Source: a virus
Reading direction: 5' to 3' (one strand)
Virus record (IMG/VR): IMGVR_UViG_3300012354_000007
Location: 1 to 38,265 of that record
DNA: 38,265 nucleotides
Positions 12,479 through 38,265 of the stretch are shown here, in pieces (the first letter of the stretch is position 1; each line of letters begins with the position of its first letter). The notes under the pieces were generated by a model. The model was not told where the DNA came from, ran no database searches, and was given only the letters and a program-made list of their open reading frames with translations. The translations under genes were made by a program, and so were the position numbers.

Positions 12479-12560
12479 GTGTCTGTAGCTCGAAGAGAAG
12501 TACGGCGAGAGCGTGCGTCATGGCGACGTAAGGTTGTGGGTTCGAGCCCCACCAGACACA
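12479..12560 (+). tRNA. tRNA-like element, atypical D-arm and anticodon loop
   Basis: The ends fold as a tRNA: acceptor GTGTCTG (12479-12485) pairs 7/7 with CAGACAC (12553-12559), and the T-arm is GTGGG / TTCGAGC / CCCAC (12536-12552). The spacer TA, D-stem GCTC/GAGC, anticodon stem TGCGT/ACGTA and 5-base variable loop also fit. Two things do not. The D-loop is 17 bases, and the 7-base anticodon loop CATGGCG has A rather than T at position 33, giving UGG (Pro) only by position. Discriminator A 12560; CCA is not encoded. Either a degenerate tRNA, a tRNA mimic, or a real tRNA with an odd D-loop. Confidence 0.6.
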
Positions 12561-12562
12561 CA

Positions 12563-23021: not shown

Positions 23022-23471
23022 TCAGCTACCAGAGACCCGCTCGAAGTCCAGGCCGTCGCCGACCGTACCGAGGACCTGAAGTGTGATCTCCGTGATTTCC
23101 GTGGTGCGCACGTCGCCACCGACAGCCGGCGGCTTGAGCAGTACCTTACCCGTCCAGCGCACGTGTTCGAGCGCGATGTCAGGGTGGTGGTCGAGTACGA
23201 ATGCCGCGGTGACATTCGGGTTGCTCCACAGGTAGTCCGAAATACCGGTGGATCGCCAGTCGGAGAAAAACGTCAGCGCAAGCGTCGGCTGATCGTCCGT
23301 CTCTTCGACAAAGCTATTGTCCTGCAACGGGTCGTCACAGTACGTGTACTGACGATCGCCCTCCTGCGTGCCGGGGTCCAGCGTCCAGCTTTTGAGCTGG
23401 CACTGAAACTCGGTCGTACCGATGGACAGTGACAGGGTCTTGAGCCTGCGCTGATGCACTGGCGTGGTCAT
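23022..23471 (-). CDS. major tail protein
   Basis: 149 residues from ATG 23471, overlapping the previous stop (ATGA). Beta-rich sequence (LKTLSLSIGTTEFQCQLKSW, TLALTFFSDWRSTG, TAAFVLDHHPDIALEHV) ending in VLGTVGDGLDFERVSGS. Length and position before the tail chaperones fit a siphovirus tail tube protein. An in-frame extension of ten codons upstream overlaps the previous gene and was discarded. Confidence 0.85.
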   Translation of the reverse strand: MTTPVHQRRLKTLSLSIGTTEFQCQLKSWTLDPGTQEGDRQYTYCDDPLQDNSFVEETDDQPTLALTFFSDWRSTGISDYLWSNPNVTAAFVLDHHPDIALEHVRWTGKVLLKPPAVGGDVRTTEITEITLQVLGTVGDGLDFERVSGS

Positions 23472-23845
23472 AGCGAGACCTCCACGGTGATCGTGTAGCA
23501 AGGACTCTCCGTGGCACTGAATTGACTGTAGATCCCCGGAAAGGCTTGCGTCACAACGGCGTCCTCATAGTTCTGTTCGATGGCCGAGACCACGGGGTCC
23601 ACAAAGGACAGCAACTTCGTGATCACGGTACCCACCTGGTCATTCGGCCCGACGACAAAGACACTGAACTCGGCGTTGGTCGGCTGACCGATGGCCGGGT
23701 AATGCTCCCATGTCAAAGCCGGCGGGCTGACCAGTACCCCAAGGCGTTCTACGGGCTCGCCGACGAGATAGCTCCGCAACCCATCGACAGCGCCAACGAC
23801 GGATCGGAGTGTCTCCCAGGCGGCTTGCGCGGTGCTGATGCTCAT
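23468..23845 (-). CDS. tail terminator-like protein
   Basis: 125 residues, ATG 23845. Sequence (AWETLRSVVGAVDGLRSYLV, EFSVFVVGPNDQVG, ITKLLSFVDPVVSAI) shows helix 1 followed by alternating strands, as in tail terminator/gpU-like proteins. It lies directly before the major tail gene, the normal place for a tail terminator. Assigned from position and pattern. Confidence 0.7.
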   Translation of the reverse strand: MSISTAQAAWETLRSVVGAVDGLRSYLVGEPVERLGVLVSPPALTWEHYPAIGQPTNAEFSVFVVGPNDQVGTVITKLLSFVDPVVSAIEQNYEDAVVTQAFPGIYSQFSATESPCYTITVEVSL

Positions 23846-24197: not shown

Positions 24198-25631
24198 TCA
24201 GCTACCCGAACCGGCGGCGGTGACCTGGAAGCACTTGGTACTACGGTGACCCTGGCGCACCAGGACCGCCGTGTACCCCCAGACACCGAGCTTGATCGTC
24301 TCGGGGCCATCCGGCTCCTCGTACCGGAACCGCATCACGGCCGATTCGAAGAACAGCGTGTCCGCCGCCCGGGCAACGACCACCTTCTGTGGGTAGGTGA
24401 GACCGGTGCCGGCGCCCGCGGTGCCGAGCAGGTCCAGGCCTTCGACCTCGGCGCTCTGCTGCGTGATGACCTGGCCCGCGGCGTTCTGGAGCGAGTAGCG
24501 GGTCATCGGAACGATCGGACGCCCCTGAAGATCCTTCAGCTTCCGGAACTTACCGAACCGCCGGATGTCACCGAAGACCAAGTCGGCCGGGGCGAACTGA
24601 TTCGCCCAGACCTCAATCGACGTGTCGATGACAGCATCGATCGCGCCATCGATCTGGTCCTGGAACGCGTCCTCGTTGAGCAGCGTGACCACCGGTGCGC
24701 CCGCGGCTGCGATCATCGCTGCGCACACCTTGAGCTCAACCTTGTAGTCGTACACCGACATCAGATCCGAGTAGATCAGCGAGTCGATCGCCGGATTGTC
24801 CATGTCGATCATCTGGCGCGACACCTTCTGCGCACCGCTGGTCGGCTTGGGGGTGACCGTCTCGACGTCGCTGTCGTACGCGTCGGTGTCGGTCACAGGA
24901 TCGTTTTCCGCGGCCTGCTCGCCGACCACGGCGTCCGTACCCGCGGTCTGCTTGGGCAGGGTCATCGGCCGCGGGTCGTCGCCGAGATCGATCCGCCGGA
25001 CCTTCTCGGCGACCGCGCGAATCTGGCGCGGGATCTTCTCGTACTCCTCGGTCAGCCACTTGGGCGGGACCAGGCCCACGCCGGCGCTGGCGTTGGACAG
25101 CGCACGGGTGTGCTTGCCCCAGTCGGCGAGCCGGACGCCGGAGGGCGAGCTCGTGCCCTCCTCCTTCGCCTTCGCCATGTCGGAGAAGAACGAGTGCTGG
25201 CCGCCCTCGCGGACCGAGCGGTAGTGCCCCGGGTCGCGATCCTGCGTGGTGGTGTTGCCGGTCAGGTTCTCGCCCTTGTCGCCGGCGGCTGCGCGGGTCT
25301 GCGTGCCGTTCGCGTCGACGGTCGGGATGTCGGTGCCGCTGTCCGCCGAAGCCTGCCCGATGGTGCCGAGCGCGGCCGAGAGGTTGGCAACGGCGGCCGA
25401 GCGCGTCTCGAGGCTGCTCAGCTCGGTGATCTCATCACCGAGGGCTGACAGCGTCTGCGCGCTGGTCTTGATCGTGGCCAGTTCCTCGTCCGTCAAGTCG
25501 CGCTGCTCCCTGGCCGCGCGCAACTGGACTTCGCGGGTCTCGCCGAGCAGCTTGGTGTAGCGCTCCTGGCGTGCCGTGAGGTACGGATTGCCGCTGGCCT
25601 GGCCGGCGACGTCGACCGTGGTCTTATTCAT
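24198..25631 (-). CDS. major capsid protein, HK97 fold, with N-terminal scaffold-like region
   Basis: 477 residues from ATG 25631, chosen because GGGAGGG lies just upstream; an in-frame extension to 25769 lacks this. Residues ~20-100 are a charged helix (ELATIKTSAQTLSALGDEI), the delta/scaffold domain that is normally cut off by the prohead protease. The rest has the HK97 pattern: KVRRIDLGDDPRPMTLPKQ, DAYDSDVETVTPKPTSGAQKVSRQ, and the C-terminal LVRQGHRSTKCFQVT. No separate scaffold gene is present. Confidence 0.93.
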   Translation of the reverse strand: MNKTTVDVAGQASGNPYLTARQERYTKLLGETREVQLRAAREQRDLTDEELATIKTSAQTLSALGDEITELSSLETRSAAVANLSAALGTIGQASADSGTDIPTVDANGTQTRAAAGDKGENLTGNTTTQDRDPGHYRSVREGGQHSFFSDMAKAKEEGTSSPSGVRLADWGKHTRALSNASAGVGLVPPKWLTEEYEKIPRQIRAVAEKVRRIDLGDDPRPMTLPKQTAGTDAVVGEQAAENDPVTDTDAYDSDVETVTPKPTSGAQKVSRQMIDMDNPAIDSLIYSDLMSVYDYKVELKVCAAMIAAAGAPVVTLLNEDAFQDQIDGAIDAVIDTSIEVWANQFAPADLVFGDIRRFGKFRKLKDLQGRPIVPMTRYSLQNAAGQVITQQSAEVEGLDLLGTAGAGTGLTYPQKVVVARAADTLFFESAVMRFRYEEPDGPETIKLGVWGYTAVLVRQGHRSTKCFQVTAAGSGS

Positions 25632-25782
25632 GATCCCTCCCGTGTCGGGGGCGAATGGTGTCTGCTCCTGCTCACACGGGGTGTCGTCGGGCGGATCGGG
25701 GTGCTGGCTTGCGGCCAGGGTGTCGATCATGCGCGCGGCGGGGTGCCGGTCTCGAACGCAGAGTAGCACCCCACCGTGACAC

Positions 25783-27929: not shown

Positions 27930-28088
27930 CTACACCTTCCCCAGTTCGACGAGCACGCCGAACACGAACAGCAGCGTCATGCCGAGCAGTACGCCCCACC
28001 ACAGACCGGCCAGGAAGCCTACGGCGACCGCGGCACCCGGTGCCCCGACCAACTGGCAGACCGTGGCCAGCAACTGGCGCCGGCTCAC
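27930..28088 (-). CDS. small membrane protein, 52 aa
   Basis: Reads from GTG 28088, overlapping the preceding stop by GTGA. Almost entirely hydrophobic (VCQLVGAPGAAVAVGFLAGL, WWGVLLGMTLLFVFGVLVE), predicting two membrane helices, with a basic N-terminus (VSRRQ). Unknown function; placed between the Acb2-like gene and portal. Confidence 0.65.
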   Translation of the reverse strand: MSRRQLLATVCQLVGAPGAAVAVGFLAGLWWGVLLGMTLLFVFGVLVELGKV

Positions 28089-28327
28089 CCGGTCTCCTCG
28101 ACGGCATAGACCGCCGCACGCACAGCCGAGTCCTTCGATTCGAGCAGCTTGCGCAGCGCCACGGTGGTCTCCGGACCATCCGGCAGCCGGACGAGCAGCT
28201 GTTCGACGAGATCCGCGTAGCTGACCACGATCCCACGCAGGTCCTCCCGCAGGTGCCCGATGCGGAATCCCTTCAGTACCTGAACGGTCCCGGGGTGCCG
28301 ATCGGTATAGCGTTCGTGAAGCTCCAT
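28085..28327 (-). CDS. small helical protein, Acb2-like (candidate anti-CBASS)
   Basis: 80 residues from ATG 28327. The pattern is a short HP-containing N-terminus (RYTDRHPGTV), two helices (VLKGFRIGHLREDLRGIVV, YADLVEQLLVRL) and then PDGPETTVALRKLLESKDSA followed by VRAAVYA. The motif [L/C]P-x-x-xE-x-x-x-AL-x-x-LE-x-x-x-x-x-A-x-A is that of phage helical-hairpin proteins annotated in the Acb2/Tad1 hairpin group, which sequester cyclic nucleotides and block CBASS defence. The assignment is by pattern memory only; the protein might be another member of that fold with no binding role. It is next to the terminase gene. Confidence 0.5.
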   Translation of the reverse strand: MELHERYTDRHPGTVQVLKGFRIGHLREDLRGIVVSYADLVEQLLVRLPDGPETTVALRKLLESKDSAVRAAVYAVEETG

Positions 28328-28343
28328 TGTGGTGTGTCCCTTC

Positions 28344-30014
28344 TTAGCTGATCGCGGCCTTGACGCGTGTCAGCGGTGGCAGCGTACGGACAGTATGGAC
28401 GGCACCCGCGGCGGCGTAGCTGGCCGTGACGTGGCCGACGCCGCCACGCCGGGCAAAACGCCACTTGTCGCCACGAGACAGCTTGACCGTCCCAGAGATG
28501 TGCGCGTTCAGGAGCGGGTCATCCGAGTGAAGCAGACGACGTGAATCGACCAACTCGGCAAACTCGGCACACGCTTCATCGGTCTCAGTCCCGGTGAGCT
28601 CGATCAGTTGCTCCTCGGTCAGGAGTGGCCGCCGCTCGCCGGCCGGCGGCCTGGTCAGATTGCGGATATCCGCCGCCATAGCGACCGCCGGTCCATCGCT
28701 GAACCAGCAGAACGCACGCGGACCGACCATTTTGATGTCGTCACGCAGGTCCTTGCGGCACTCTTCGGTTGAGGACCACGAACTGATCGGCTCGACGCGG
28801 TAGACCTCGGGTGCAACTTCGACCGCGGCGTACAGCACGACGTGATCGTTGTCCGGCGCGACGTCAAGACAGAGCACCACACCTTCGCGGTGATCGGACA
28901 TGGTGCCGCTGGAGTCCGCGCACGCCTTCCATGCGTCCCGGTTGAACACACCGTCCAGCGTGTCGACCTTCTGACACAGAACCTCGGTGCGGAACACGTC
29001 CGGCGGGTCTGTGCCGAGCGCCGAACGGATGGCCGCAATGCTGACCGTAATCCCCATCGCGGGGTTGGCCTGCGCCCAGGCGTCCTCATCGTCGATCTCG
29101 CAGCCTTCGACTGCTGACCATTCGAAGATGCCGATCGAGCCATCCCGAGCGTCGCCCATGTACGACACACCGCCGGAGTCCTGCCGGACGCCCGCGGCGG
29201 CGCGCAGGTGGTTGAGCACCACGCTGGCCTCATCGCCGGCATTCGAGAGTGCCCAGATCTGCCCCATGAGCCGGGCCATGATCGTCTTGGACAGAGCCGA
29301 CCAGGCCAGCCAGTCGCGTTGTTCGCGGATCTCGTCCATTGTGAGGTGGTCGACGGACAGACCACGGCCGGCGCCACGCGTGCTCGCGGTGATCTTGTAC
29401 CGGGCACCATTGATCAGCTTCAGGAACTCGTCGCCGTTGGTCCTGCGCAGCGTGAGGACCTCGGCGGCGAGGTCCGGCACGTCCATGGCCATGTCGTGCG
29501 CAGCGTTGAGTACTTCGCGCGCGATCGAGACATCCTGGGCGGCGCCGAGCACGAGCCGCGCGCCGTCGATGTAGAGCCGCCACAGGGCCAGCGTGCGAGA
29601 GAGACTGGTCTTCCCGTTCTGCCGTGCGACCAGGGCAAGGATAGTCCGAAACCGATAGGTGCCGTCCGGCAGCAGCTCCATGGCATGGATGACGAGCCAC
29701 TCCTGCCAGGGCAGCAGTGGCTCACCGAGCACATCACGGGCAAAGTCGATGACCTCGTATCCGCGAGTGGTCTCGCGGGTGAGCGGGCGCAGCGGTGGCG
29801 TGGCCAGGCGAGGTTCAGTCCGGCCGATATTGCCTGCCTGCTGACCGGCGTGACGACCGGCTGCCGCGGCGCGGGCACTGACCAGCGTGGTACTACCCGG
29901 CTGCGCTTCCTGCGCGAGCAGCTCCGCCCGGATACGCCGGGCCATCTCGACCGCGCGATAGTCGTCCTCGGTCAAGTCCAGCTGCACACCCGGCGCCGGC
30001 TTGCGCGGCTGCAT
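28344..30014 (-). CDS. terL: terminase large subunit
   Basis: 556 residues from ATG 30014, 10 bases after the small subunit's TAA; longer forms start inside that gene. The ATPase has Walker A ARQNGKT (130-136), Walker B DHLTMDEI (D227, E228) and ALSNAGDEAS as the coupling motif. The nuclease half shows VLCLDVAPDND and CWFSDGPAVAMA. It packages DNA through the portal and cuts concatemers. The style matches the actinophage TerL group with an RQNGK P-loop. Confidence 0.95.
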   Translation of the reverse strand: MQPRKPAPGVQLDLTEDDYRAVEMARRIRAELLAQEAQPGSTTLVSARAAAAGRHAGQQAGNIGRTEPRLATPPLRPLTRETTRGYEVIDFARDVLGEPLLPWQEWLVIHAMELLPDGTYRFRTILALVARQNGKTSLSRTLALWRLYIDGARLVLGAAQDVSIAREVLNAAHDMAMDVPDLAAEVLTLRRTNGDEFLKLINGARYKITASTRGAGRGLSVDHLTMDEIREQRDWLAWSALSKTIMARLMGQIWALSNAGDEASVVLNHLRAAAGVRQDSGGVSYMGDARDGSIGIFEWSAVEGCEIDDEDAWAQANPAMGITVSIAAIRSALGTDPPDVFRTEVLCQKVDTLDGVFNRDAWKACADSSGTMSDHREGVVLCLDVAPDNDHVVLYAAVEVAPEVYRVEPISSWSSTEECRKDLRDDIKMVGPRAFCWFSDGPAVAMAADIRNLTRPPAGERRPLLTEEQLIELTGTETDEACAEFAELVDSRRLLHSDDPLLNAHISGTVKLSRGDKWRFARRGGVGHVTASYAAAGAVHTVRTLPPLTRVKAAIS

Positions 30015-30024
30015 CTTGCCATGT

Positions 30025-30423
30025 TTATGCCGGACGGCCTGCCCGGAGCGCCGAGAGCTTGCTTGTCGACGGGACACTAGAACCACCCCCCGCGGCCTTC
30101 ACCATGGCCGCGCGTGCTTTCGGCGTGGCACCGAGCTCTACCAGCAGCGCCGTCAGCTTGGGCCCGAGATCCGCCAGCGTCTGCCGGGCGGAGAGTTTGT
30201 TCCGCAGCGCCTGGACGGCCTGCAACGTGTCGATCTCGGTCTCCGGATCGTCTTCGACCAGGCGAATGATCTTCTCCGCGGTACGGCCGATCCATTCCGC
30301 GCCGTCCAGTTCTCGGGCGTACTTGACCGCTAGCTGATGCGTGGCAGCGTCGGCAGACGTCGAGTGCTCGTCCAGCGCCCCGAGCGTCGCCGCTACCGCG
30401 GTCGCCATGTTGTCGTGTTGCAC
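30025..30423 (-). CDS. terminase small subunit-like protein
   Basis: 132 residues; starts GTG 30423, with an ATG five codons later (30408) as an alternative. A helical protein (HQLAVKYARELDGAEWIGRT, EIDTLQAVQALRNKLSAR) with a long C-terminal helix and a Ser-rich end (GGGSSVPSTSKLSAL). Position just before TerL and the helical, DNA-recognition-like character support a small terminase subunit. No sequence signature is decisive. First gene of the late operon. Confidence 0.75.
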   Translation of the reverse strand: MQHDNMATAVAATLGALDEHSTSADAATHQLAVKYARELDGAEWIGRTAEKIIRLVEDDPETEIDTLQAVQALRNKLSARQTLADLGPKLTALLVELGATPKARAAMVKAAGGGSSVPSTSKLSALRAGRPA

Positions 30424-30505
30424 CCCGCATCCTTCCCTTCCGTCGATCGCTCCGGCTCAGGCTACAGTCTGTGTTCTTGGAAGGGTCGGATCGGGGAAAC
30501 ACACC

Positions 30506-31912
30506 ATGACGCATCACATCGGAATCGGCATCACCACGCACAACCGGCGAGACGTGTTCGTGACATCGCTGGCTGCCCAGCAGCGGTACCTCCCGCCAGG
30601 CGCGAAGCTCGTAGTGGTCGACGACGCCAGCACATCACCGACACCGGAGGCTGACTTCACGTTCAAGACCAACGCCGGTATCGCTCGCGCGAAGAACAAG
30701 TGTCTCGAGTTACTCGCTGACTGCGAGCACATTTTCCTTTTCGACGATGACGCATACCCACTGATCGACAGATGGTGGTTGCCCTATGTGGACTCGTCGG
30801 AGCCGCACCTGATGCGGATTTTTCACGATCTCGCCGGACGTCGGAAGATGAAAGACATTGACATCATGTTCGACGATGGCCGGCACGTCGCCTATACCGG
30901 CGCCCGCGGCGCGATGCTGTACGCCCACAGGTCGGTACTGGACATCGTCGGTGGCATGGACCCCGGTTACGGCCGATGGGGATATGAGCATGTCGACTGG
31001 TCGCGCCGGATCCACAACGCCGGGCTGACCACCTGGCCGTTTGCCGATGTCGCCGAATCAGCGCAGCTCATACGTTGCGAGGACGAGTTCGAGACCGTCG
31101 ACCGCTCGGTACCCGGCTTGACACGCGAGCGCGCCGTGAAGACCAACCATGCACGATATCGACGAACGCTGGCCACGCGATCGACCGCATATCACGAATA
31201 CCGCGAAGCGCGCGACGTGGTGATCACGTCACTGTTCACCAGTCAGCCCGATCCTCAGCGCGGCGTGAAGTGGGAACCGGATATCGATCGTCTGGGCACC
31301 CTGCGTGCGTCGCTGGGCGCGCAGCCGCTCGTGGTTCTGCACGATGAACTGACCGAGACGGACGACGAGGTCACGGAGTTTGTCCGGCACCGACAAGCAA
31401 TCCAACCGTACTTCCAGCGCCACGTGTCCGCCTGGCAGTACCTGCGCGACCACCCCGAGGTGCGCTACGCCTGGTGTGTGGACGGTACGGACGTCGAGCT
31501 ATTCCGCAGTCCGTTCCCGGACATGGTGCCGGGCCTGCTCTACCTCGGTTGTGAACCCACCACCGTGGGCGATGATTGGATGCGTCGCAACCACCGCGCC
31601 GCACACATCGCCGACTGGCTGACTGCGAACGCCGGGCGGCAGCTTCTCAACGCCGGGCTGATCGGCGGGGACCGGGAAACCGTGATGACGTTCTTGCACG
31701 AGATCATCCGTGAATACGCCGATCAGCATGCCCGGGTCTTCTATCGCGAAGATCGGCACAATCACGGCACCGGGGACATGGCCGTGCTGAACTACGTCGC
31801 GTACGAGCGGTTCAGTGAGTCGATCCGTACCGGTCCGCAGGTGTGCACGCTGTTCCGTGCCGAGCAGACCCGGCAACAGGCCGCGCCGCACACCTGGTGG
31901 CGGCACAAGTGA
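30506..31912 (+). CDS. glycosyltransferase, GT-A fold, two domains
   Basis: 468 residues from ATG 30506. Domain 1 (residues 1-230) is a GT2-like fold: THHIGIGITTHNRR, LVVVDDAST, an acidic LFDDDAY (D80-D82, candidate metal-binding DxD) and GYEHVDWSRRIHNAGL. Domain 2 (about 240-468) has a second GT-A-like CVDGTDVELFRSPFP and a DVAVLNYVAY-like section, so this may be a bifunctional enzyme. On the opposite strand to the late operon, just upstream of the terminase genes. Likely target: virion protein or host envelope glycan; not determinable here. A TACAGT (30463-30468) is a possible -10. Confidence 0.82.
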   Translation: MTHHIGIGITTHNRRDVFVTSLAAQQRYLPPGAKLVVVDDASTSPTPEADFTFKTNAGIARAKNKCLELLADCEHIFLFDDDAYPLIDRWWLPYVDSSEPHLMRIFHDLAGRRKMKDIDIMFDDGRHVAYTGARGAMLYAHRSVLDIVGGMDPGYGRWGYEHVDWSRRIHNAGLTTWPFADVAESAQLIRCEDEFETVDRSVPGLTRERAVKTNHARYRRTLATRSTAYHEYREARDVVITSLFTSQPDPQRGVKWEPDIDRLGTLRASLGAQPLVVLHDELTETDDEVTEFVRHRQAIQPYFQRHVSAWQYLRDHPEVRYAWCVDGTDVELFRSPFPDMVPGLLYLGCEPTTVGDDWMRRNHRAAHIADWLTANAGRQLLNAGLIGGDRETVMTFLHEIIREYADQHARVFYREDRHNHGTGDMAVLNYVAYERFSESIRTGPQVCTLFRAEQTRQQAAPHTWWRHK

Positions 31913-32625
31913 ACGTAGAAAGGTACCCCGCGCGGGTGAGTATCGCCGTGTGCGGCCACCACAGACGCGCCGCGCAGGCACGTGAGCTCGCAGACCGCGT
32001 CGGTGGCCGGCTGGCACTGGACGACGGCACCTACGGTGAGCTGGCCAACCATGACCGGGCCTGGGCGCGGGCGCTCGAAGCTGACGCGCAGATCTGGCAG
32101 CATGCCCGTGCTACGCGGTGGAACCTGGACGCGGTCCGTGACCGGTGGTGCATCGTGCTCGAAGACGACGCCGTGGTGCCGGACGACTTCGCCGAGCAGG
32201 CCACGCGTGTACTGACCGGCGTGGCCGATGAGCGCGACACCCTGGTGTCGTTCTACCTCGGCGCCGAGCGGCCTACAGAGTGGCAGAGTCGCATCACCCG
32301 GGCGGTAGGTGTTGCCGAAGCTACCGGCGCGTCCTGGATCACCTCACGCTGGCTGCTCTGGGGCGTCGCCGTCGCGCTGCCGTCCTCGGCCGCGGCGCGC
32401 ATGCTCGAACAGATCCCGGAACGGAAGTACCGGCCGTACGATGAGCGGTTGGGCGCGTGGGCGCGCCGGGCCCGGATCCCGGTGCGCTACACCTGGCCGT
32501 CGCTGGCCGACCACGCCGAGGGGCCGACGCTGATTCACCACGCGGACGGCCAGCCACGAGACGCGCCGCGCCAGGCCTGGGCGACCGGCACCCCCATACC
32601 CGGGGGTCCGGCCGTCGAGCTCTAG
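31909..32625 (+). CDS. glycosyltransferase, GT25-like
   Basis: 238 residues from GTG 31909 with a GTGA overlap on the previous gene. A small Rossmann-like opening (VSIAVCGHHRRAAQA) is followed by CIVLEDDAVVPDDF (LEDDA at 84-88), the acidic motif of GT25-type enzymes, and by FYLGAERP and WLLWGVAVALP. Co-translated with the two-domain glycosyltransferase, so the two probably act in sequence on the same substrate. Pairs of such enzymes are known in actinophages that glycosylate capsid or tail proteins. Confidence 0.75.
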   Translation: MNVERYPARVSIAVCGHHRRAAQARELADRVGGRLALDDGTYGELANHDRAWARALEADAQIWQHARATRWNLDAVRDRWCIVLEDDAVVPDDFAEQATRVLTGVADERDTLVSFYLGAERPTEWQSRITRAVGVAEATGASWITSRWLLWGVAVALPSSAAARMLEQIPERKYRPYDERLGAWARRARIPVRYTWPSLADHAEGPTLIHHADGQPRDAPRQAWATGTPIPGGPAVEL

Positions 32626-32665
32626 CGCAGCATTCGTTACGCCCAGGCTGGGGCGAACGCTGCGC
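32625..32665. terminator. long hairpin between convergent genes
   Basis: GCGCAGC (32625-32631) pairs with GCTGCGC (32659-32665). Inside, TTCG (32633-32636) pairs with CGAA (32654-32657) and CCC with GGG near the loop. It begins at the stop codon of the glycosyltransferase and lies between it and the minus-strand gene ending at 32675. Likely a bidirectional terminator; no U-tract is needed on the minus side. Confidence 0.7.
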
Positions 32666-32674
32666 GCCGATGAA

Positions 32675-33364
32675 CTACCAGCCCTGCTTGTCCGCGCAGA
32701 CCGGGCCGATACCACGCTCAATCGACTCTTCGTTGCTCAATCGCGCCGAGCAGATACAGCAGACCCCGTAGAGCTGGCCGAACTCGGCGGCCTGCTCCTC
32801 GGTGAGCCGCATGGCCGCGGTGAGCTGGCGGAGCGCGCCCGGCGCGTACGTCCAGGTGGCCACGTAGTGCATTGGCTCGTCATCAGTGGCCGGGATCAGC
32901 TCGGTGACCAGTTCCTTGGCGTACAGGTTGGCCCCGGTCTGGTTCCAGACCACCTTGAAAATCCGCGCGCCGTCAGCGGACAGACGACGGTAGAAGCCAT
33001 CAGTGAGCGGCTTCACAGCTTCACGCTCGACGTGCACCCGGGCCGGCGTCGTCGGCGTGTCCAGGCACGGCCGCGGCTGCTTGGTGGTGATCATCGGCTC
33101 GATCGGCCGCGGGCTGCCGGATCCACACGCGCTGCGCAGGCTGGCCGCCGGCGTGTGGTCCAGCCACTCACTGACGGTGCTGCTCGGTGCGGTCACCTTT
33201 TCGGCCGGGCGGTGGCCATACCCCTGGGGCCATTCAGCCACCGACTTCTCGGCAGTCCGTTGCTGCTGTTCGCTCTGTAGCGACATCAGCGTGCGACGTG
33301 CGGCGTCCAGCTCCGCGGACAGGCGCTCGGGCGTGTAGTGGCGGTAGGGACGGCGCTCGCTCAT
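32675..33364 (-). CDS. protein with C-terminal zinc ribbon-like domain (DUF6011 type)
   Basis: 229 residues from ATG 33364 (GAGAGGACC upstream). N-terminal ~40 residues are helical and charged (RLSAELDAARRTL), then a Ser/Pro-rich linker with SEWLDHTPAA, a central domain (GFYRRLSADGARIFKVVW, YVATWTYAPGALRQLT), and a C-terminus with CCICSARLSNEESIERGIG followed by PVCAD. The Cys-Cys...SIERGIGPVC pattern is the small zinc-binding DUF6011 module widespread in actinophages. Function unknown; a promoter with 10-bp repeats lies upstream. Confidence 0.8.
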   Translation of the reverse strand: MSERRPYRHYTPERLSAELDAARRTLMSLQSEQQQRTAEKSVAEWPQGYGHRPAEKVTAPSSTVSEWLDHTPAASLRSACGSGSPRPIEPMITTKQPRPCLDTPTTPARVHVEREAVKPLTDGFYRRLSADGARIFKVVWNQTGANLYAKELVTELIPATDDEPMHYVATWTYAPGALRQLTAAMRLTEEQAAEFGQLYGVCCICSARLSNEESIERGIGPVCADKQGW

Positions 33365-33398
33365 GGTCTGGTCCTCTCGTCGGCTGGTGACGAGATGA

Positions 33399-33428
33399 AC
33401 TATGCCACCGGATGCCAGAGGATGTCAA
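33399..33428 (-). promoter_or_regulatory. promoter with 10-bp repeats for the DUF6011-type gene
   Basis: TTGACA 33428-33423, 18-bp spacer, CATAGT 33404-33399, predicted start about 33391, 27 bases before the ATG. Three 10-bp units TGACATCCTC, TGGCATCCGG and TGGCATAGTT are in register. Confidence 0.65.
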
Positions 33429-33457
33429 CGGTTGTAGTAGAACTGTGACATAAGAAC

Positions 33458-33633
33458 GAGGGACGCGCTGACGCGATCGGAGCACGCAGTACCTCCGCGG
33501 GCCAGCGCGTCCCTCTCGCCCGTACCTGCGCGCACGGGCTGCCTGTGGTCCGGCGGCGGGGCGGGTAGGTGGTCAAGGACTCCCGCTCCCGCCCCGCCGG
33601 GGCTTGTCCGTGCTGCCTGTGACAACGGCACGG
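33458..33633. other. four consecutive hairpins in a gap without genes
   Basis: H1: GAGGGACGCGCTG (33458-33470) with CAGCGCGTCCCTC (33503-33515). H2: GCCCGT (33518-33523) with ACGGGC (33534-33539). H3: 12 bp, 33554-33565 with 33588-33599. H4: CCGTGC (33608-33613) with GCACGG (33628-33633). The 13-base sequence CTGTGGTCCGGCG occurs at 33543 and 33638, and with one mismatch at 33688. No convincing ORF. Together with the DUF6011 promoter this fills 33365-33650. It may be stacked terminators for the minus-strand genes at 33651-34353 or a non-coding RNA. Confidence 0.6.
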
Positions 33634-33650
33634 CTATCTGTGGTCCGGCG

Positions 33651-33734
33651 TCAGAGACGTAGTCGGTCGAATGGCCGGATGCCTGCACTGTAGTCCGGCG
33701 CGACGATGAATAGCACCAGGCCCAGGAAGCTCAT
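33651..33734 (-). CDS. possible 27-aa hydrophobic peptide
   Basis: ATG 33734 overlaps the upstream stop (ATGA) and reads MSFLGLVLFIVAPDY...FDRLRL to TGA 33651. The first half is a single membrane-like helix. The evidence is the coupling only. It may be a chance ORF. Confidence 0.3.
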   Translation of the reverse strand: MSFLGLVLFIVAPDYSAGIRPFDRLRL

Positions 33735-33997
33735 CGGACGTCGTCGACGTGCGAGTGCGGCTCGACGGCGTTGGCGGGATCGGCCGGGTCATCCTCGGCC
33801 CGATAGTCCAGCGGTACCTCCTGCGTGCACTGCGTACACACACGGACGTCCACGACGATCTGCCTGCCCTCGTCGTCCACGTCGCCGGGTGTCGCGCGCT
33901 GCGTCGGGATGGTCGTCCAGTGCGGCGGGCAGACCGGCGTGTCGTAGACACCGCTGATCGCCTGTACGCCATCGGCCGCGGGTACCTCAGTCGTCAT
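33731..33997 (-). CDS. CPPHW / CxxC small protein, paralogue of the next gene upstream
   Basis: 88 residues from ATG 33997 (in frame also from ATG 34065). Contains CPPHWTT, an acidic DVDDEGR turn, VCTQCTQEVPLDY and DDPADPANAV. The upstream gene shares CPPHW, the CxxC and the DPANPA repeat in the same order. Four Cys/His ligands suggest a zinc ribbon. Unknown function. Confidence 0.72.
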   Translation of the reverse strand: MTTEVPAADGVQAISGVYDTPVCPPHWTTIPTQRATPGDVDDEGRQIVVDVRVCTQCTQEVPLDYRAEDDPADPANAVEPHSHVDDVR

Positions 33998-34065
33998 GAT
34001 CCTTGCCTCATCTCGGTTGTGGTGCATGTAACCAGGAAGCTGCCAGGCCGGCCGTGACAGCGCCA

Positions 34066-34353
34066 TCAGCTGGGCGGCACGTACGCGGGGTTGGCCGGGT
34101 CCAGGGCGGGATCGTAGTCGTACGGAACGTCGATGCCGCATGCCTGGCACGTCTTGACCTGAATGGCAATCGGGTTCTTGTCCTCGTCCTTCTCGCCGGT
34201 CTCGCGCCACGTGCCGTTGGTCACCCAGTGCGGCGGGCAAATCGGCGTCGGCACGTCGCTGGCCACCTGCGTCTGTTCGGCGAGCCGGGCCTTGTGCGCC
34301 TCCGTGGCAGCCTGCTGCTCCGGACCATCCTGGCCTTCGGGAATCGTTCCCAT
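34066..34353 (-). CDS. CPPHW / CxxC small protein, 95 aa
   Basis: ATG 34353 with GAGGAG 9 bases upstream. Residues 1-35 are Gln/Ala-rich and helical; then CPPHWVTNGTW, TGEKDEDKNPIAIQVKTCQAC and VPYDYDPALDPANPAYVPP. The core matches the downstream neighbour, so the pair arose by duplication. Probable zinc-binding module. Controlled by the strongest-looking promoter in the window. Confidence 0.75.
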   Translation of the reverse strand: MGTIPEGQDGPEQQAATEAHKARLAEQTQVASDVPTPICPPHWVTNGTWRETGEKDEDKNPIAIQVKTCQACGIDVPYDYDPALDPANPAYVPPS

Positions 34354-34412
34354 GATCCACTACTCCTCAGCTTTGGGTGCCGGTCGCTGACGCGTGACGA
34401 CCGGCATTATGG

Positions 34413-34442
34413 ACTGTACAACAATGCGCCAACGGGTGTCAA
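34413..34442 (-). promoter_or_regulatory. promoter with 10-bp repeats and near-consensus -10
   Basis: TTGACA 34442-34437, 18-bp spacer, TACAGT 34418-34413; predicted start about 34406. Upstream units TGGCATCCTT, TGACACCCGT and TGGCGCATTG are in 10-bp register. Drives the CPPHW pair. Confidence 0.7.
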
Positions 34443-34449
34443 AGGATGC

Positions 34450-34658
34450 CATTCTTTAATTGCATTCAGCAATCTGGTAATCACGCTTATCAGCTCTGAC
34501 CTGCGGTTATAGGGGAGAGAGAAAGCTAATTGCTGAGATCTAGATGAGCAAGATCATCCGTAAAAAATGAATTGATTGAGTCCTGTGTGGACACACATTT
34601 ATACGCGCAGATCTCGCAATTCTTTCATTCAATTGTTTGTGCATTTATCCATTTGTTT
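34450..34658. other. AT-rich intergenic stretch without genes
   Basis: Roughly 40% GC by eye, in contrast to the surrounding DNA. It has several AATTG/CAATT words, a TGTGTGGACACACA-like palindrome near 34587-34600 and imperfect short inverted repeats (TTGCT/AGCAA), but no ORF I trust and no strong terminator. Could be an easily melted origin element or a recently acquired segment. Confidence 0.45.
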
Positions 34659-34814
34659 TCAATGGATGACACCAAGACCGATGAGCACTGCCACGATGGC
34701 ACACACCATGCCGATGACAGCTAGGCTTGTGCCCCACCCACGCGAGGCACGCTCGGTCACTGATCCACCGACACACACCACCGCGATACCAAGCATGATG
34801 ATCGCCACGTTCAC
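34659..34814 (-). CDS. small membrane protein, 51 aa
   Basis: GTG 34814 overlaps the HNH stop (GTGA). The sequence VNVAIIMLGIAVVCVGGSV ... LAVIGMVCAIVAVLIGLGVIH predicts two membrane helices with a short charged linker (TERASRG). Function unknown; last gene of this minus-strand group. Confidence 0.65.
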   Translation of the reverse strand: MNVAIIMLGIAVVCVGGSVTERASRGWGTSLAVIGMVCAIVAVLIGLGVIH

Positions 34815-35137
34815 GATATCTCCATGCTCATCCATTGGGTACGTCGCACAGGAGCAGGGTCACGCATACCAGGCCTACCCTCTCTGGTGTTGCATGGCTT
34901 ACATGCGGCCACCATCACATTGGTATCGCACAGGTTGGCATCCGACACACCACCTTTGTGGTGCACCGTGTTGGCCTTACGCACACACCCGTCGAGCCCC
35001 ATCTGACAGGTCCAGTGGTCACGGTTCAGCACGAACAGACGCGCCGCTTTGTACAGCGGGTTGTTCCGCCAGGGTACTGCCCCCGTACGCGCGGCCTCCC
35101 GCTTGTTCGCATTCCAGCCACCCGGCTGCGCGCCCAT
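34811..35137 (-). CDS. HNH endonuclease
   Basis: 108 residues from ATG 35137. The HNH module covers the second half: RLFVLNRDHWTCQM, a GCVRKANTVHHKGGV (HH) and NVMVAACKPCNTREG, with Cys pairs to hold zinc. In HK97-type phages such an enzyme usually sits next to the terminase and helps cleave DNA at packaging; here it is separated from terminase by the glycosyltransferases. A GTG start at 35233 (VPELADALACG...) would give 140 aa and overlap the upstream gene by 94 bases. Neither start has a strong Shine-Dalgarno. Confidence 0.85.
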   Translation of the reverse strand: MGAQPGGWNANKREAARTGAVPWRNNPLYKAARLFVLNRDHWTCQMGLDGCVRKANTVHHKGGVSDANLCDTNVMVAACKPCNTREGRPGMRDPAPVRRTQWMSMEIS

Positions 35138-35139
35138 GG

Positions 35140-35601
35140 CTACCAGCCGCCGGCGAGCAGCACGCAGTACAGCGACGGCATCGGACACACGCAGCGGTAG
35201 CCCGCATGCCAGGGCGTCGGCGAGCTCGGGCACGGCCGATCTCGCGGCGGGACGTAGTCGGCCAGCTGCGTAAGCCGAAGCGGATCGTTCGAGGTCGGCA
35301 CAAGCTTGGACCAGCGCCGTCGCCCGGACTTCTCCGTGGTGAGCTCGACAAGCCAGAACCAGCCTGCCGGCGTGACGCCGTCGACGTCGGTGGCCGGGAC
35401 ATTCAGTTCGAACGTGCCCGCCACGATCGTCGCCGTGAGACTCAGCTCCCCGGCAAGCACGCTGAAGTCGTCAGGCGGCACACTCAGCGCCAGTACGCCC
35501 GCGCTGGGCCAGAACGTCACGGTGCCCGTGGCCAGCGTGCCGTCCAGCTCGAACAGCTCATCCGTGACCGTGGTGCGCGTGAATGCCGCGGGAATCGCCA
35601 T
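35140..35601 (-). CDS. tail-fibre/minor-tail-like protein, 153 aa
   Basis: ATG 35601 overlaps the previous stop by one base. Residues 1-110 match the beta-sandwich N-terminus of many actinophage minor tail proteins: LDGTLATGTVTFWPSAG, a VLAGELSLTATIVAGTFELN stretch, PATDVDG and GWFWLVELTTEKSGRRR ... LTQLADYVPP. The final ~30 residues (Cys/Pro-rich, ending VLLAGGW) are unlike the family and overlap the possible long HNH start. It stands alone, away from the tail operon. Confidence 0.65.
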   Translation of the reverse strand: MAIPAAFTRTTVTDELFELDGTLATGTVTFWPSAGVLALSVPPDDFSVLAGELSLTATIVAGTFELNVPATDVDGVTPAGWFWLVELTTEKSGRRRWSKLVPTSNDPLRLTQLADYVPPRDRPCPSSPTPWHAGYRCVCPMPSLYCVLLAGGW

Positions 35602-36128
35602 CAGCCGACCCTTTCGTCCTGGTCAGCCGAGGATAGGCCGTAGCCGTTCGCGTGAAGCAGGTCGATCAGGTCATCAACGACCAGGCGTACCGGCATCCGC
35701 TCGGTGATCGTGAGCGTATCGAACGAGTTGAACGGCCCACTAGCCAACTCCGCGAGATCGCCCAGCCAGAGCCAGGCCCACCACGACGTAGGCAGCCGCC
35801 CCTTACGCCGCTCAACCAGGATGCCGACCGCCCCATCGCCGCTCTCGTGCCGCATAGCCGCGGTCTCGTCCAGCAGGACTGTGGCGCGATTCTGTGTCAG
35901 ATCGTCCACGAGGTACTTCAGGGACCAGATGAGCCCAGGGCACCCGCGGATGTCCCCCGGATCCGCAGAGGACCTCTCAGCCGTGCGGAAGGCCGTCCTG
36001 ACGGCTCGCTCCGCATCCGGCCAGCCGCTCACACGGAGCAGACCGGCGAACATCCGCTCGCTTTGGTTGCCCCGGGCTCGTGCCGACCGGCCACGTGCCG
36101 ATCGTTCCGGGTCCACCGTGCCTGCCAT
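35601..36128 (-). CDS. PD-(D/E)XK resolvase-like protein
   Basis: 175 residues from ATG 36128 (GAGGGG upstream). The core is SERMFAGLLRVSGW, then DPGDIRGCPGLIWSLKYLVD and GILVERRKGR...WWAWLWLGDL, the layout of phage Holliday-junction resolvase-like nucleases: Asp in GDI, the Lys in SLK and a late KR-like pair. The residue that is normally acidic two before the Lys is Ser here, so catalysis is uncertain. A TTG at 36152 would add 8 residues. Confidence 0.62.
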   Translation of the reverse strand: MAGTVDPERSARGRSARARGNQSERMFAGLLRVSGWPDAERAVRTAFRTAERSSADPGDIRGCPGLIWSLKYLVDDLTQNRATVLLDETAAMRHESGDGAVGILVERRKGRLPTSWWAWLWLGDLAELASGPFNSFDTLTITERMPVRLVVDDLIDLLHANGYGLSSADQDERVG

Positions 36129-36161
36129 GTCCAGATCCCCTCGCCCGTCCAACGGACCCGA

Positions 36162-36191
36162 AGATTAGCAGAGGATGTCAATGGATGTCAT
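36162..36191 (-). promoter_or_regulatory. promoter with 10-bp repeats for the resolvase-like gene
   Basis: ATGACA 36191-36186, 18-bp spacer, TAATCT 36167-36162, with a second TTGACA in the spacer (36181-36176). Units TGACATCCAT and TGACATCCTC are in register, followed by TGCTAATC. Predicted start about 36154, 26 bases before the ATG. Confidence 0.68.
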
Positions 36192-36209
36192 CGGTAGTTC
36201 GTTTATCTA

Positions 36210-36436
36210 CCTGCCAACCTGCCGGGGCTTCTGGCAAGTGGGGGGTCCTCCGGACACCCCCACCCACTTGCCCAAGACAAGACCGAGGTGGGATTTTTTA
36301 CTTGCCAGTTGCTTGCATGTACCTGCCACTGCTGGTCACAGGCTTGCACGCTACCTGCCAGCCTTGCCAGTTTGATCTCCATTTACCTGCCAGATTGCTT
36401 GCCAGTCATGATCAACTAGCTTGCCAGCCTTGCCAG
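36210..36436. repeat. CYTGCCAG repeat cluster (iteron-like)
   Basis: Exact CTTGCCAG/CCTGCCAG copies on the plus strand start at 36301, 36354, 36363, 36386, 36398, 36420 and 36429; one copy is on the minus strand (36231-36238). Degenerate copies are at 36210, 36218, 36267 and 36322. The 17-base unit CYTGCCAGCCTTGCCAG occurs twice (36354 and 36420). A G/C hairpin (about 36238-36263) and a T-run (36294-36299) lie on the left. A GGCACGGTGCC palindrome (36446-36456) follows on the right, before the gene at 36481. Confidence 0.82.
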
Positions 36437-36480
36437 ATTTTGCCCGGCACGGTGCCAAGCTCATCTGCTACTGTCATGCC

Positions 36481-36897
36481 ATGACAACCAAGTCAGACAT
36501 CGATAAGTGCATATCAGAGCTAGTGCAGATCAAGGCCGATCTACGCAGTGCGATGCGTCAGACAGACCGTGCCATTCAGAGACTGGCACACCCCCATCAG
36601 GGGCCCTGGTGCGCCGTCGAGCTGCCCGATGACGTCCGGCGGTACGATGGACCGGCGTCGTCCGTTCTGCACGAATTGTCGCAATTGCTCATCTGGCATG
36701 CCCAATCATCGCCGCCCGGTCAGGTAACCCGCGCCGAGTCGGCCATCCGCCTGGGCAGGGCTCGCAGCGACGGATCCGTACGACGCGCCTGGTCTGCTCT
36801 GACCGAGCTCGCCTGGATCCGGCCCGTCAATCCGTTCGCCCCCGAGGGAGCCGTCACATACTGGCGCTGGTCGGGCCCGTTGGTCACTAATGAGTAA
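36481..36897 (+). CDS. putative winged-helix DNA-binding protein
   Basis: 138 residues from ATG 36481. A charged N-terminal helix (LVQIKADLRSAMRQTDRAIQR) is followed by a WCAVELPDDV strand, then LHELSQLLIWHAQSSPPGQV and a TRAESAIRLGRARSDGSVRR/AWSALTELAWIRPV section that reads as helix-turn-helix plus wing, like replication-initiator or phage repressor domains. It starts 6 bases after TACTGT (36469-36474), a possible -10, and 45 bases after the last CYTGCCAG. Candidate for binding these repeats; not a recognised family. Confidence 0.68.
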   Translation: MTTKSDIDKCISELVQIKADLRSAMRQTDRAIQRLAHPHQGPWCAVELPDDVRRYDGPASSVLHELSQLLIWHAQSSPPGQVTRAESAIRLGRARSDGSVRRAWSALTELAWIRPVNPFAPEGAVTYWRWSGPLVTNE

Positions 36898-36903
36898 CGA
36901 CCA

Positions 36904-36933
36904 TTGACATCCATTGGCGTCCTATGACATCCT
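36904..36933 (+). promoter_or_regulatory. promoter with 10-bp repeats
   Basis: TTGACA 36904-36909, 18-bp spacer, CATCCT 36928-36933. Units TGACATCCAT, TGGCGTCCTA and TGACATCCTT are in perfect 10-bp register. A GTCAGCAG sequence follows, as at the next promoter. Gene starts at 36970. Confidence 0.65.
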
Positions 36934-36969
36934 TCAGAGGTCAGCAGCACCGCTTCGAAGGGATCCGAG

Positions 36970-37335
36970 ATGATCGAACAGACCGCAGTCCATCAGCTCT
37001 ACCCGGCCAGCCGCCTCGCCGCGATGACCACGCACACCCTGAACGATGTCGCGAAGTACGTGGAGTCGGATGCCGCGAACGGCACGACCTACAGTGGGTT
37101 GACCCGCGAGGAGACCATCGCTGCTGCACAGCGCAGCCACCGCGACGTGATGGGTGAGCTCGAGTCTCGGGCCGCCCTCGAGAACACCGCCCGTGCGATA
37201 GCCACCGAAGATCTGCGGGAGATGCTGCCGGACTTCGAGCGTGTCGCCGCGCTGTGCGGCATCAGCCCGAAGCGCACTGCGCGCAACACGCAGATCGTGA
37301 AAGACGAGCTGGCCCGGCGCGACACCATCAGTTGA
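36970..37335 (+). CDS. hypothetical helical protein, 121 aa
   Basis: ATG 36970, GAAGGGATCC upstream. All-helical and acidic (HTLNDVAKYVESDAANG, AALENTARAIATEDLREML, DFERVAALCGISPKRTAR), with a Cys and a basic end that could be HTH-like. No family recognised. Confidence 0.72.
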   Translation: MIEQTAVHQLYPASRLAAMTTHTLNDVAKYVESDAANGTTYSGLTREETIAAAQRSHRDVMGELESRAALENTARAIATEDLREMLPDFERVAALCGISPKRTARNTQIVKDELARRDTIS

Positions 37336-37354
37336 CGCTCCGACTGGCCGGCAA

Positions 37355-37410
37355 GGGATGTCACGGTTATATCACAACCGTTGACATCCCTTGCCTTCCT
37401 ATGGCATTCT
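37355..37410 (+). promoter_or_regulatory. promoter with 10-bp repeats inside an inverted repeat
   Basis: TTGACA 37381-37386, 18-bp spacer, CATTCT 37405-37410. Units TGACATCCCT, TGCCTTCCTA and TGGCATTCTT are in register. The first unit is also the right arm of an inverted repeat: GGGATGTCACGGTT (37355-37368) against AACCGTTGACATCCC (37376-37390), one bulged base, 7-base spacer. Gene start 37452 has GGAGGG upstream. Confidence 0.65.
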
Positions 37411-37451
37411 TTAGAAGTCAGCAGGAGCAGCACAGACCACGGAGGGCACTG

Positions 37452-37796
37452 ATGAGCGAGCCGATCCAGATCACCAAGGGCGCTACCGCCGCCGAACTGG
37501 CCGAGAGTCTCGCATCGGTCGGTGAGGAGATCCAGGCACGTGCAGAGGCACAGACCCGCGAAGACGTCGCCGACGCCCTGCGCGATCAGTTCGTCGACCG
37601 CAGTCAGAGCCACTGCACGTTCAACAACACCCCGGATGACTCGATCAGGGCGACCCTGCGGATCTCCGGCGAGACCAGCGATCGGCGATTCCAGGCCCTG
37701 GCCGACCGGTTCGACGTTGAGAGTGTGTCGGCTGATTTCCGTCTCGGTCTTCAGTTCGCCATCGCGATGATCCGGGACCCGGAGTTCGAGCTCTGA
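37452..37796 (+). CDS. hypothetical helical acidic protein, 114 aa
   Basis: ATG 37452. Very acidic N-terminal half with helices (ATAAELAESLASVGEEIQ, REDVADALRDQFVD), then an alpha/beta part (TLRISGETSDRRFQALADRF, LGLQFAIAMIRDPEF). No family recognised. Preceded by its own promoter, so it is probably separately timed. Confidence 0.72.
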   Translation: MSEPIQITKGATAAELAESLASVGEEIQARAEAQTREDVADALRDQFVDRSQSHCTFNNTPDDSIRATLRISGETSDRRFQALADRFDVESVSADFRLGLQFAIAMIRDPEFEL

Positions 37797-37835
37797 CGCG
37801 CCATCCATCAGCCCCATGAAAGGAAGGCAAGCACC

Positions 37836-38018
37836 ATGGCCAAAGACAACCTCGGTCACAAGGCCACACACGGCGAGGGCAGAGGTCGCCAGAAAGGCGA
37901 GTCACTCGGCTCACGTGAGGACCGGATGGACGGCAAGGGCGAGATCACCAGTGATTCGCTGAAGCACTACGGGTCCGAGCTGCGCGGCCCGAAGGAAACG
38001 GACAAGGAAGGGAAGTAA
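37836..38018 (+). CDS. small basic, low-complexity protein, 60 aa
   Basis: ATG 37836, GAAAGGAAGG upstream. Lys/Gly/Glu-rich and without hydrophobic core (HKATHGEGRGRQKGES, GSELRGPKETDKEGK), so probably disordered. Composition resembles the proteins at 4751 and 38021. Function unknown. Confidence 0.65.
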   Translation: MAKDNLGHKATHGEGRGRQKGESLGSREDRMDGKGEITSDSLKHYGSELRGPKETDKEGK

Positions 38019-38020
38019 CC

Positions 38021-38173
38021 ATGCCGATCAAGAAACAGGGCGACATCCCGGTCAGCAAGACCGACACCAAGGCGAAGCGCCAGGGTGAGGACAAACTCAG
38101 CGAGGTACTCACCGAGTCCACGCGCGACATCCGCACCACGCCGAACCAGTCCACCGACCAGAAGAAGGACTGA
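38021..38173 (+). CDS. small polar protein, 50 aa
   Basis: ATG 38021 with AAGGAAGGGAAG upstream, reading to TGA 38173. Polar, Lys/Asp/Thr-rich (VSKTDTKAKRQGEDK, TESTRDIRTTPNQSTDQKKD). Disordered by composition. Function unknown. Confidence 0.55.
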   Translation: MPIKKQGDIPVSKTDTKAKRQGEDKLSEVLTESTRDIRTTPNQSTDQKKD

Positions 38174-38192
38174 CCGGTGACCACCTACCCGA

Positions 38193-38265
38193 CTGAACTT
38201 ACTTGCCGATCTCGAAGATTTGGCCTTACCGGCAGCTGACCACCGCATAAACGAAGACCCCCTCC
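38193..38265 (+). CDS. partial ORF at the window edge
   Basis: From 38193 the frame reads LNLLADLEDLALPAADHR and then INEDPL to the window end, with leucine/aspartate periodicity that looks like a genuine helix. No standard start codon is in frame: a GTG at 38177 lies in the other frame and stops after 20 residues. A frame error or an unusual CTG start is possible. Confidence 0.3.
   Translation, partial: MNLLADLEDLALPAADHRINEDPL

Follow-up and report, generated by a model that had tools for sequence, protein, structure and literature searches.

The closest described relatives of the locus analysed here come from the O-glycosylation of mycobacteriophage virions. Published accounts, both citing Freeman et al. 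2023, describe Che8 gp110 and Corndog gp38 as essential to the glycosylation of the viral capsid (PMC12363180) and locate the glycans at the C-termini of the capsid and tail tube (PMC12619734). Immune shielding, an effect that an earlier note on this DNA had considered, has published support from mycobacteriophages only. The window, by which we mean the whole analysed stretch of 38,265 bases from a virus record, encodes a homolog of Che8 gp110, here called GT2 (37% identity, E 3e-38). The Corndogvirus TelAviv was used as a stand-in for Corndog, and its enzyme, gp33, shares 47% identity with Che8 gp110 and 31% with GT2.

In Che8 and in a Corndogvirus, as in the window, the capsid and the tail tube both end in Ser, and the mycobacteriophage enzymes, like those of the window, are encoded as a multi-gene cassette. 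Che8 gp110 is a homolog of GT2 and not of GT1, the two-domain partner of GT2 in the window. The position of GT1 is taken in Che8 by two other glycosyltransferase genes, gp108 and gp109; their products were considered as homologs of GT1 and rejected, as neither gave a match. The window's cassette also differs from that of the mycobacteriophages in being inverted relative to the terminase genes and in having no HNH gene in between. Sugar decoration of the virus particle is the most likely role of the pair, because it lies beside the packaging genes and because capsid and tail tube carry a C-terminal Gly-Ser tag that elsewhere mostly accompanies GT2.

Organization of the cassette and its relatives

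The left and middle parts of the window encode a polymerase, a methyltransferase, an exonuclease, an endolysin, and tail and head proteins; a tRNA-Leu gene with anticodon GAG (12479-12561, plus strand) lies inside the phage record. The late genes are on the minus strand in the order TerS, TerL, portal, protease, capsid, connector, tail tube and tape measure. A nucleotide similarity search with the right quarter of the window (28000-38265) found no close DNA relative among deposited phages. The terminase small subunit, TerS (30025..30423, minus strand), matches PF23931 (E 1.7e-9), and the large subunit, TerL (28344..30086, minus strand), matches phrog_9 (E 3e-71). The longest reading frame of TerL shares 62 bases with TerS, and no terminase profile matches the first ~70 residues that it encodes; the true start is probably further in. 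The two proposed acceptors of glycosylation are the major capsid protein (24198..25769, minus strand; phrog_2263 major head protein, E 1.5e-20) and the major tail protein or tail tube (23022..23501, minus strand; phrog_4574, E 4e-9). The longest capsid reading frame begins at GTG 25769; the likelier start is ATG 25631, which is preceded by a GGAGGG ribosome-binding site and gives 477 residues.

GT1 (30506..31912, 468 aa, starting with ATG 30506) and GT2 (31909..32625, 238 aa) are on the plus strand, opposite TerS and TerL on the minus strand, as the earlier note had read them. The distance of about 80 bp from the terminase start that was given there corresponds to an 82-bp gap between the divergent starts of TerS and GT1 (30424..30505), in which a sigma-70-like promoter was looked for and none was found. 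Both genes are real, being full-length reading frames with matches far beyond chance, GT1 to phrog_1579 over its whole length (E 8e-186) and GT2 to phrog_854 (E 8e-55). Co-translation of the two is plausible, since there is a 4-base overlap between GTG 31909 of GT2 and the GT1 stop. GTG 31936 is an equally good start, however, and GT2 may begin there because its homologs start near residue 10 of GT2. The terminator claimed for the cassette was not borne out. A GC-rich hairpin (~32625..32666, plus strand) does lie between the convergent genes, with -27.5 kcal/mol for a 66-nt stretch (z -2.0; 10 of 200 shuffles were as stable), but it lacks a U-tract and its stability exceeds that of shuffled sequence only modestly, and an intrinsic terminator is therefore not supported. 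The convergent neighbor of GT2 (32675-33364, minus strand) encodes a protein with a C-terminal DUF6011 domain (PF19474, E 3e-12).

Relatives of GT1 that span at least 80% of the query were found in 372 phage records, mostly of mycobacteriophages, and relatives of GT2 in 706. The phages mEp390 and AsXd-1 and giant Klebsiella phages have relatives too, as do prophage-like regions of Enterobacterales, Brucella, Puerhibacterium, Brevibacterium and others, several actinobacteria among them. The phrog_1579/phrog_854 pair is adjacent in the window, on one strand and in the order GT1-GT2, and it has relatives in the same order; at other loci the usual arrangement is GT1-GT2-(HNH)-TerS-TerL on one strand. 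This recurrence in phages and prophages agrees with the description of the pair as a cassette. GT1 and TerL are co-directional in all 36 of the other loci that show both (some of which share a contig), and in most of these the cassette heads the packaging genes, whereas the cassette of the window is not on the TerS-TerL strand and is the only such inversion seen. We treat the sharing of a strand with TerS-TerL as the usual arrangement and not as a condition of function.

Among the named relatives, phages related to Cheoctovirus carry a full-length GT1 homolog (~50% identity to that of the window), and Mycofy1 carries one of 46% identity within the same two genes, which show the same 4-base overlap as in the window. 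Their pair sits at the right end of the genome and shares a strand with the packaging genes, whereas that of the window is on the opposite strand. OlympiaSaint has a small gene between GT1 and GT2, where the window has none. In OlympiaSaint the product of gene 1, which lies immediately upstream of TerL, is annotated as a minor tail protein, likely a misannotation, whereas in Che8 it is annotated as the terminase small subunit. GT1 is apparently broken or truncated in the genomes of a Pantoea stinkbug symbiont and of an Enterobacter. At seven loci in Micromonospora, Mycolicibacterium, Mycobacterium and Bacteroidota genomes, GT1 occurs without a detectable GT2 and no tagged late reading frames were seen; GT1 may have a different acceptor there.

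Predicted structures of the two enzymes

Sequence searches with GT1 and GT2 against the PDB gave no useful match, and the likenesses described here come from comparing predicted folds. The GT1 model, built from 37 homologs and confident (pLDDT 91), consists of two GT-A domains, in each of which an Asp motif follows a strand of that domain. In domain 1 this is the putative metal/nucleotide-sugar motif D80-D81-D82 (30743..30751, plus strand), right after modeled strand 75-80. Structure prediction for the second domain, which had been proposed earlier as a check, returned a GT-A fold with D326-G-T-D329 (31481..31492, plus strand) right after strand 319-325, a second putative active site. The residues invariant in the 37 homologs are D80-D82, E161-H162, D326, D329, N382 and G384/387/388. 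The model and this conservation thus support the reading of the large enzyme as a two-domain GT-A protein that may have two active sites. Its best PDB fold matches, heparosan synthase 2 and the chondroitin polymerase K4CP (E 2e-11 to 5e-9), are bifunctional GT-A polymerases that also have two GT-A domains per chain. GT1 is only ~10-12% identical to them and has a smaller chain, and the likeness is one of fold. The single-domain fold matches were GT6 enzymes, which also speak for the second putative site, and ppGalNAc-T2.

The GT2 model (pLDDT 87) resembles POMGnT1, the mimivirus proteins R655 and R699, and the GT25 enzyme COLGALT1. Its EDD motif (E85-D86-D87; 32161..32169, plus strand) includes D87, which is invariant in 18 homologs. 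The "GT25-like" assignment made in the earlier note holds at the level of fold, where COLGALT1 and R655/R699 are among the top PDB matches, but does not extend to sequence families, as a Pfam search gave no GT25 match.

A C-terminal tag that accompanies GT2

The capsid protein of the window ends in AAGSGS and the tail tube in RVSGS, so that both terminate in -Gly-Ser-COOH; none of the 11 other late proteins of the window that were checked ends this way. Seven of the 249 window reading frames of at least 80 aa end in GS by composition, and the two tags alone are therefore not proof. Gly-Ser ends on both capsid and tail tube are also found in Che8 (NKTGS and YSDGS), mEp390 (SSGS and ASGS) and AsXd-1. 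In Mycofy1 and TelAviv both proteins end in Ser, and in one of the two the preceding residue is another small or an acidic one. Across 37 regions fetched around GT1, 43 of 465 late reading frames end in GS, and most regions that bear GT2 have one capsid-sized and one tail-sized frame with this ending, from several unrelated capsid and tail families. A third late protein with a GS end (PEEGS, DERGS), of 108-110 aa and encoded just after the capsid gene, was seen in some HK97-type prophages that carry the cassette (three loci).

The co-occurrence of tag and GT2 was then counted across viral contigs. An earlier control, chosen by tail protein, contained almost no untagged tail proteins and could not discriminate for the tail tube; it was replaced by control contigs picked by capsid similarity with the last ~15 residues trimmed, and the count took in contigs in which the cassette region was covered. 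The capsid ends in [GT]S in 68 of 68 contigs with GT2 and in 2 of 57 without (Fisher p 1e-33), and the tail tube in 61 of 64 with and 8 of 46 without (p 4e-18), p-values that overstate independence because the contigs are related to each other. Restricting the count to unique capsid tails gave 22/22 with GT2 and 1/14 without. Within one family of closely related capsids (at least 80% identity to the query) the tag is present in 10 of 10 with GT2 versus 0 of 54 without, the untagged relatives ending in GGQ, GGA, GGE and similar. When 11 linear HK97-type records, checked whole, were pooled in, the capsid counts became 71/71 with GT2 and 8/65 without. In a third capsid family all 69 members with GT2 end in [GTS]S, which adds no contrast because only one relative lacks the cassette. 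The tag goes with GT2 rather than with GT1, since the capsid is tagged in all three cases of GT2 without GT1, whereas none of six prophage regions with GT1 alone has late reading frames ending in GS.

The rule has exceptions in both directions. In HK97 and five relatives, which have no GT2, the capsid is tagged and the tail tube untagged, and one tail-protein family is tagged regardless of the cassette. Conversely, the capsid of the Gordonia phage Sephiroth is untagged although this phage has GT2, and several prophage regions with GT2 (e.g. L239, L242) have no late reading frame ending in GS. These cases are compatible with loss of the cassette, exchange of modules or a different type of virion; they could also mean that the tag has a second role.

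Function of the cassette and its implications

We assign a probability of roughly 0.82 to the view that GT1 and GT2 form a cassette for virion glycosylation whose targets are the C-termini of the capsid and tail-tube proteins, with GT2 starting or building the glycan and GT1 extending it. The role that the earlier note had suggested, glycosylation of capsid or tail proteins, is thus supported by the homology of GT2 to Che8 gp110, by tags in the window that track GT2 elsewhere, and by the recurrence of the cassette. On this view, GT2 would recognize [Gly/Thr]-Ser-COOH where it is exposed at the C-terminus of capsid and tail-tube subunits and would be required for starting or building an O-linked glycan at that site. 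GT1, by means of its two GT-A active sites, would add one or two further sugars, and each of the many capsid and tail-tube subunits per particle would then carry a short surface glycan. That GT2 acts first and GT1 then extends is an order we infer at only somewhat better than even odds, because domain 1 of GT1 also resembles polypeptide GalNAc-transferases. We likewise infer the chemistry, the sugar, the terminal Ser as the attachment point and activity in the phage of the window, while the cassette reading itself is based on homology, the predicted two-domain fold, the conserved catalytic motifs, the tags of the window and the co-occurrence of tag and GT2. The inverted orientation in the window, which bears on the time of expression, was counted against it.

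Phage glycosyltransferases of other families glycosylate DNA, as in T4. A role of this kind, in which the enzymes would add sugar to modified phage DNA bases as a protection against restriction, has been raised for Tweety gp104 (PMC2884959). For the present pair it is hardly credible: the window genes scanned (part of the reading frames) include no gene for making a hydroxymethylated base, the best-known relative of GT2 modifies a capsid, and the protein tags would be left unexplained. It is also very unlikely that the association of tag and GT2 merely reflects co-inheritance of lambdoid modules, with a purely structural C-terminal Gly-Ser. Phage modules are indeed co-inherited, and the tail-protein family and several HK97-type capsids that are tagged without GT2 speak for such an explanation, but among cassette carriers the tag is found in capsid and tail families unrelated to each other, and capsids ~80% or more alike lack exactly this end in the absence of GT2 (SGS versus SGGQ or AGGA).

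Lysogenic conversion, in which enzymes expressed from a prophage would modify a host surface polysaccharide and block the adsorption of other phages, draws on the divergence of the window's cassette from the late genes, which would suit independent expression, and on the many cassette carriers that are prophages. Modification of the host surface has also been proposed for a Tweety glycosyltransferase different from the present pair (PMC2884959). We nonetheless consider this unlikely, given the co-directional placement of GT1 and TerL at all 36 other loci that show both, the action of the Che8 homolog on virions, and tags on virion proteins that track GT2.

The cassette of the window belongs to a kind known from mycobacteriophages; what would be new is the general tag and the spread beyond mycobacteriophages. 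A published description of either was not found in the searchable literature, outside of which lies Freeman et al. 2023 itself. It is reasonably probable that [Gly/Thr]-Ser-COOH is a general acceptor of GT2-type (phrog_854) enzymes on unrelated capsids and tail tubes, and that temperate siphophages widely glycosylate their virions, among them HK97-type phages of Enterobacterales and prophages of Brucella and Brevibacterium. If the tag rule is true, glycosylated virions would be predictable from sequence, and HK97-type E. coli phages such as mEp390 would offer simple laboratory models of a modification known from mycobacteriophages. For protein O-glycosylation by small stand-alone enzymes, the tag would also supply an acceptor that can be tested directly, and one could ask why phages glycosylate their particles outside the setting of phage therapy.
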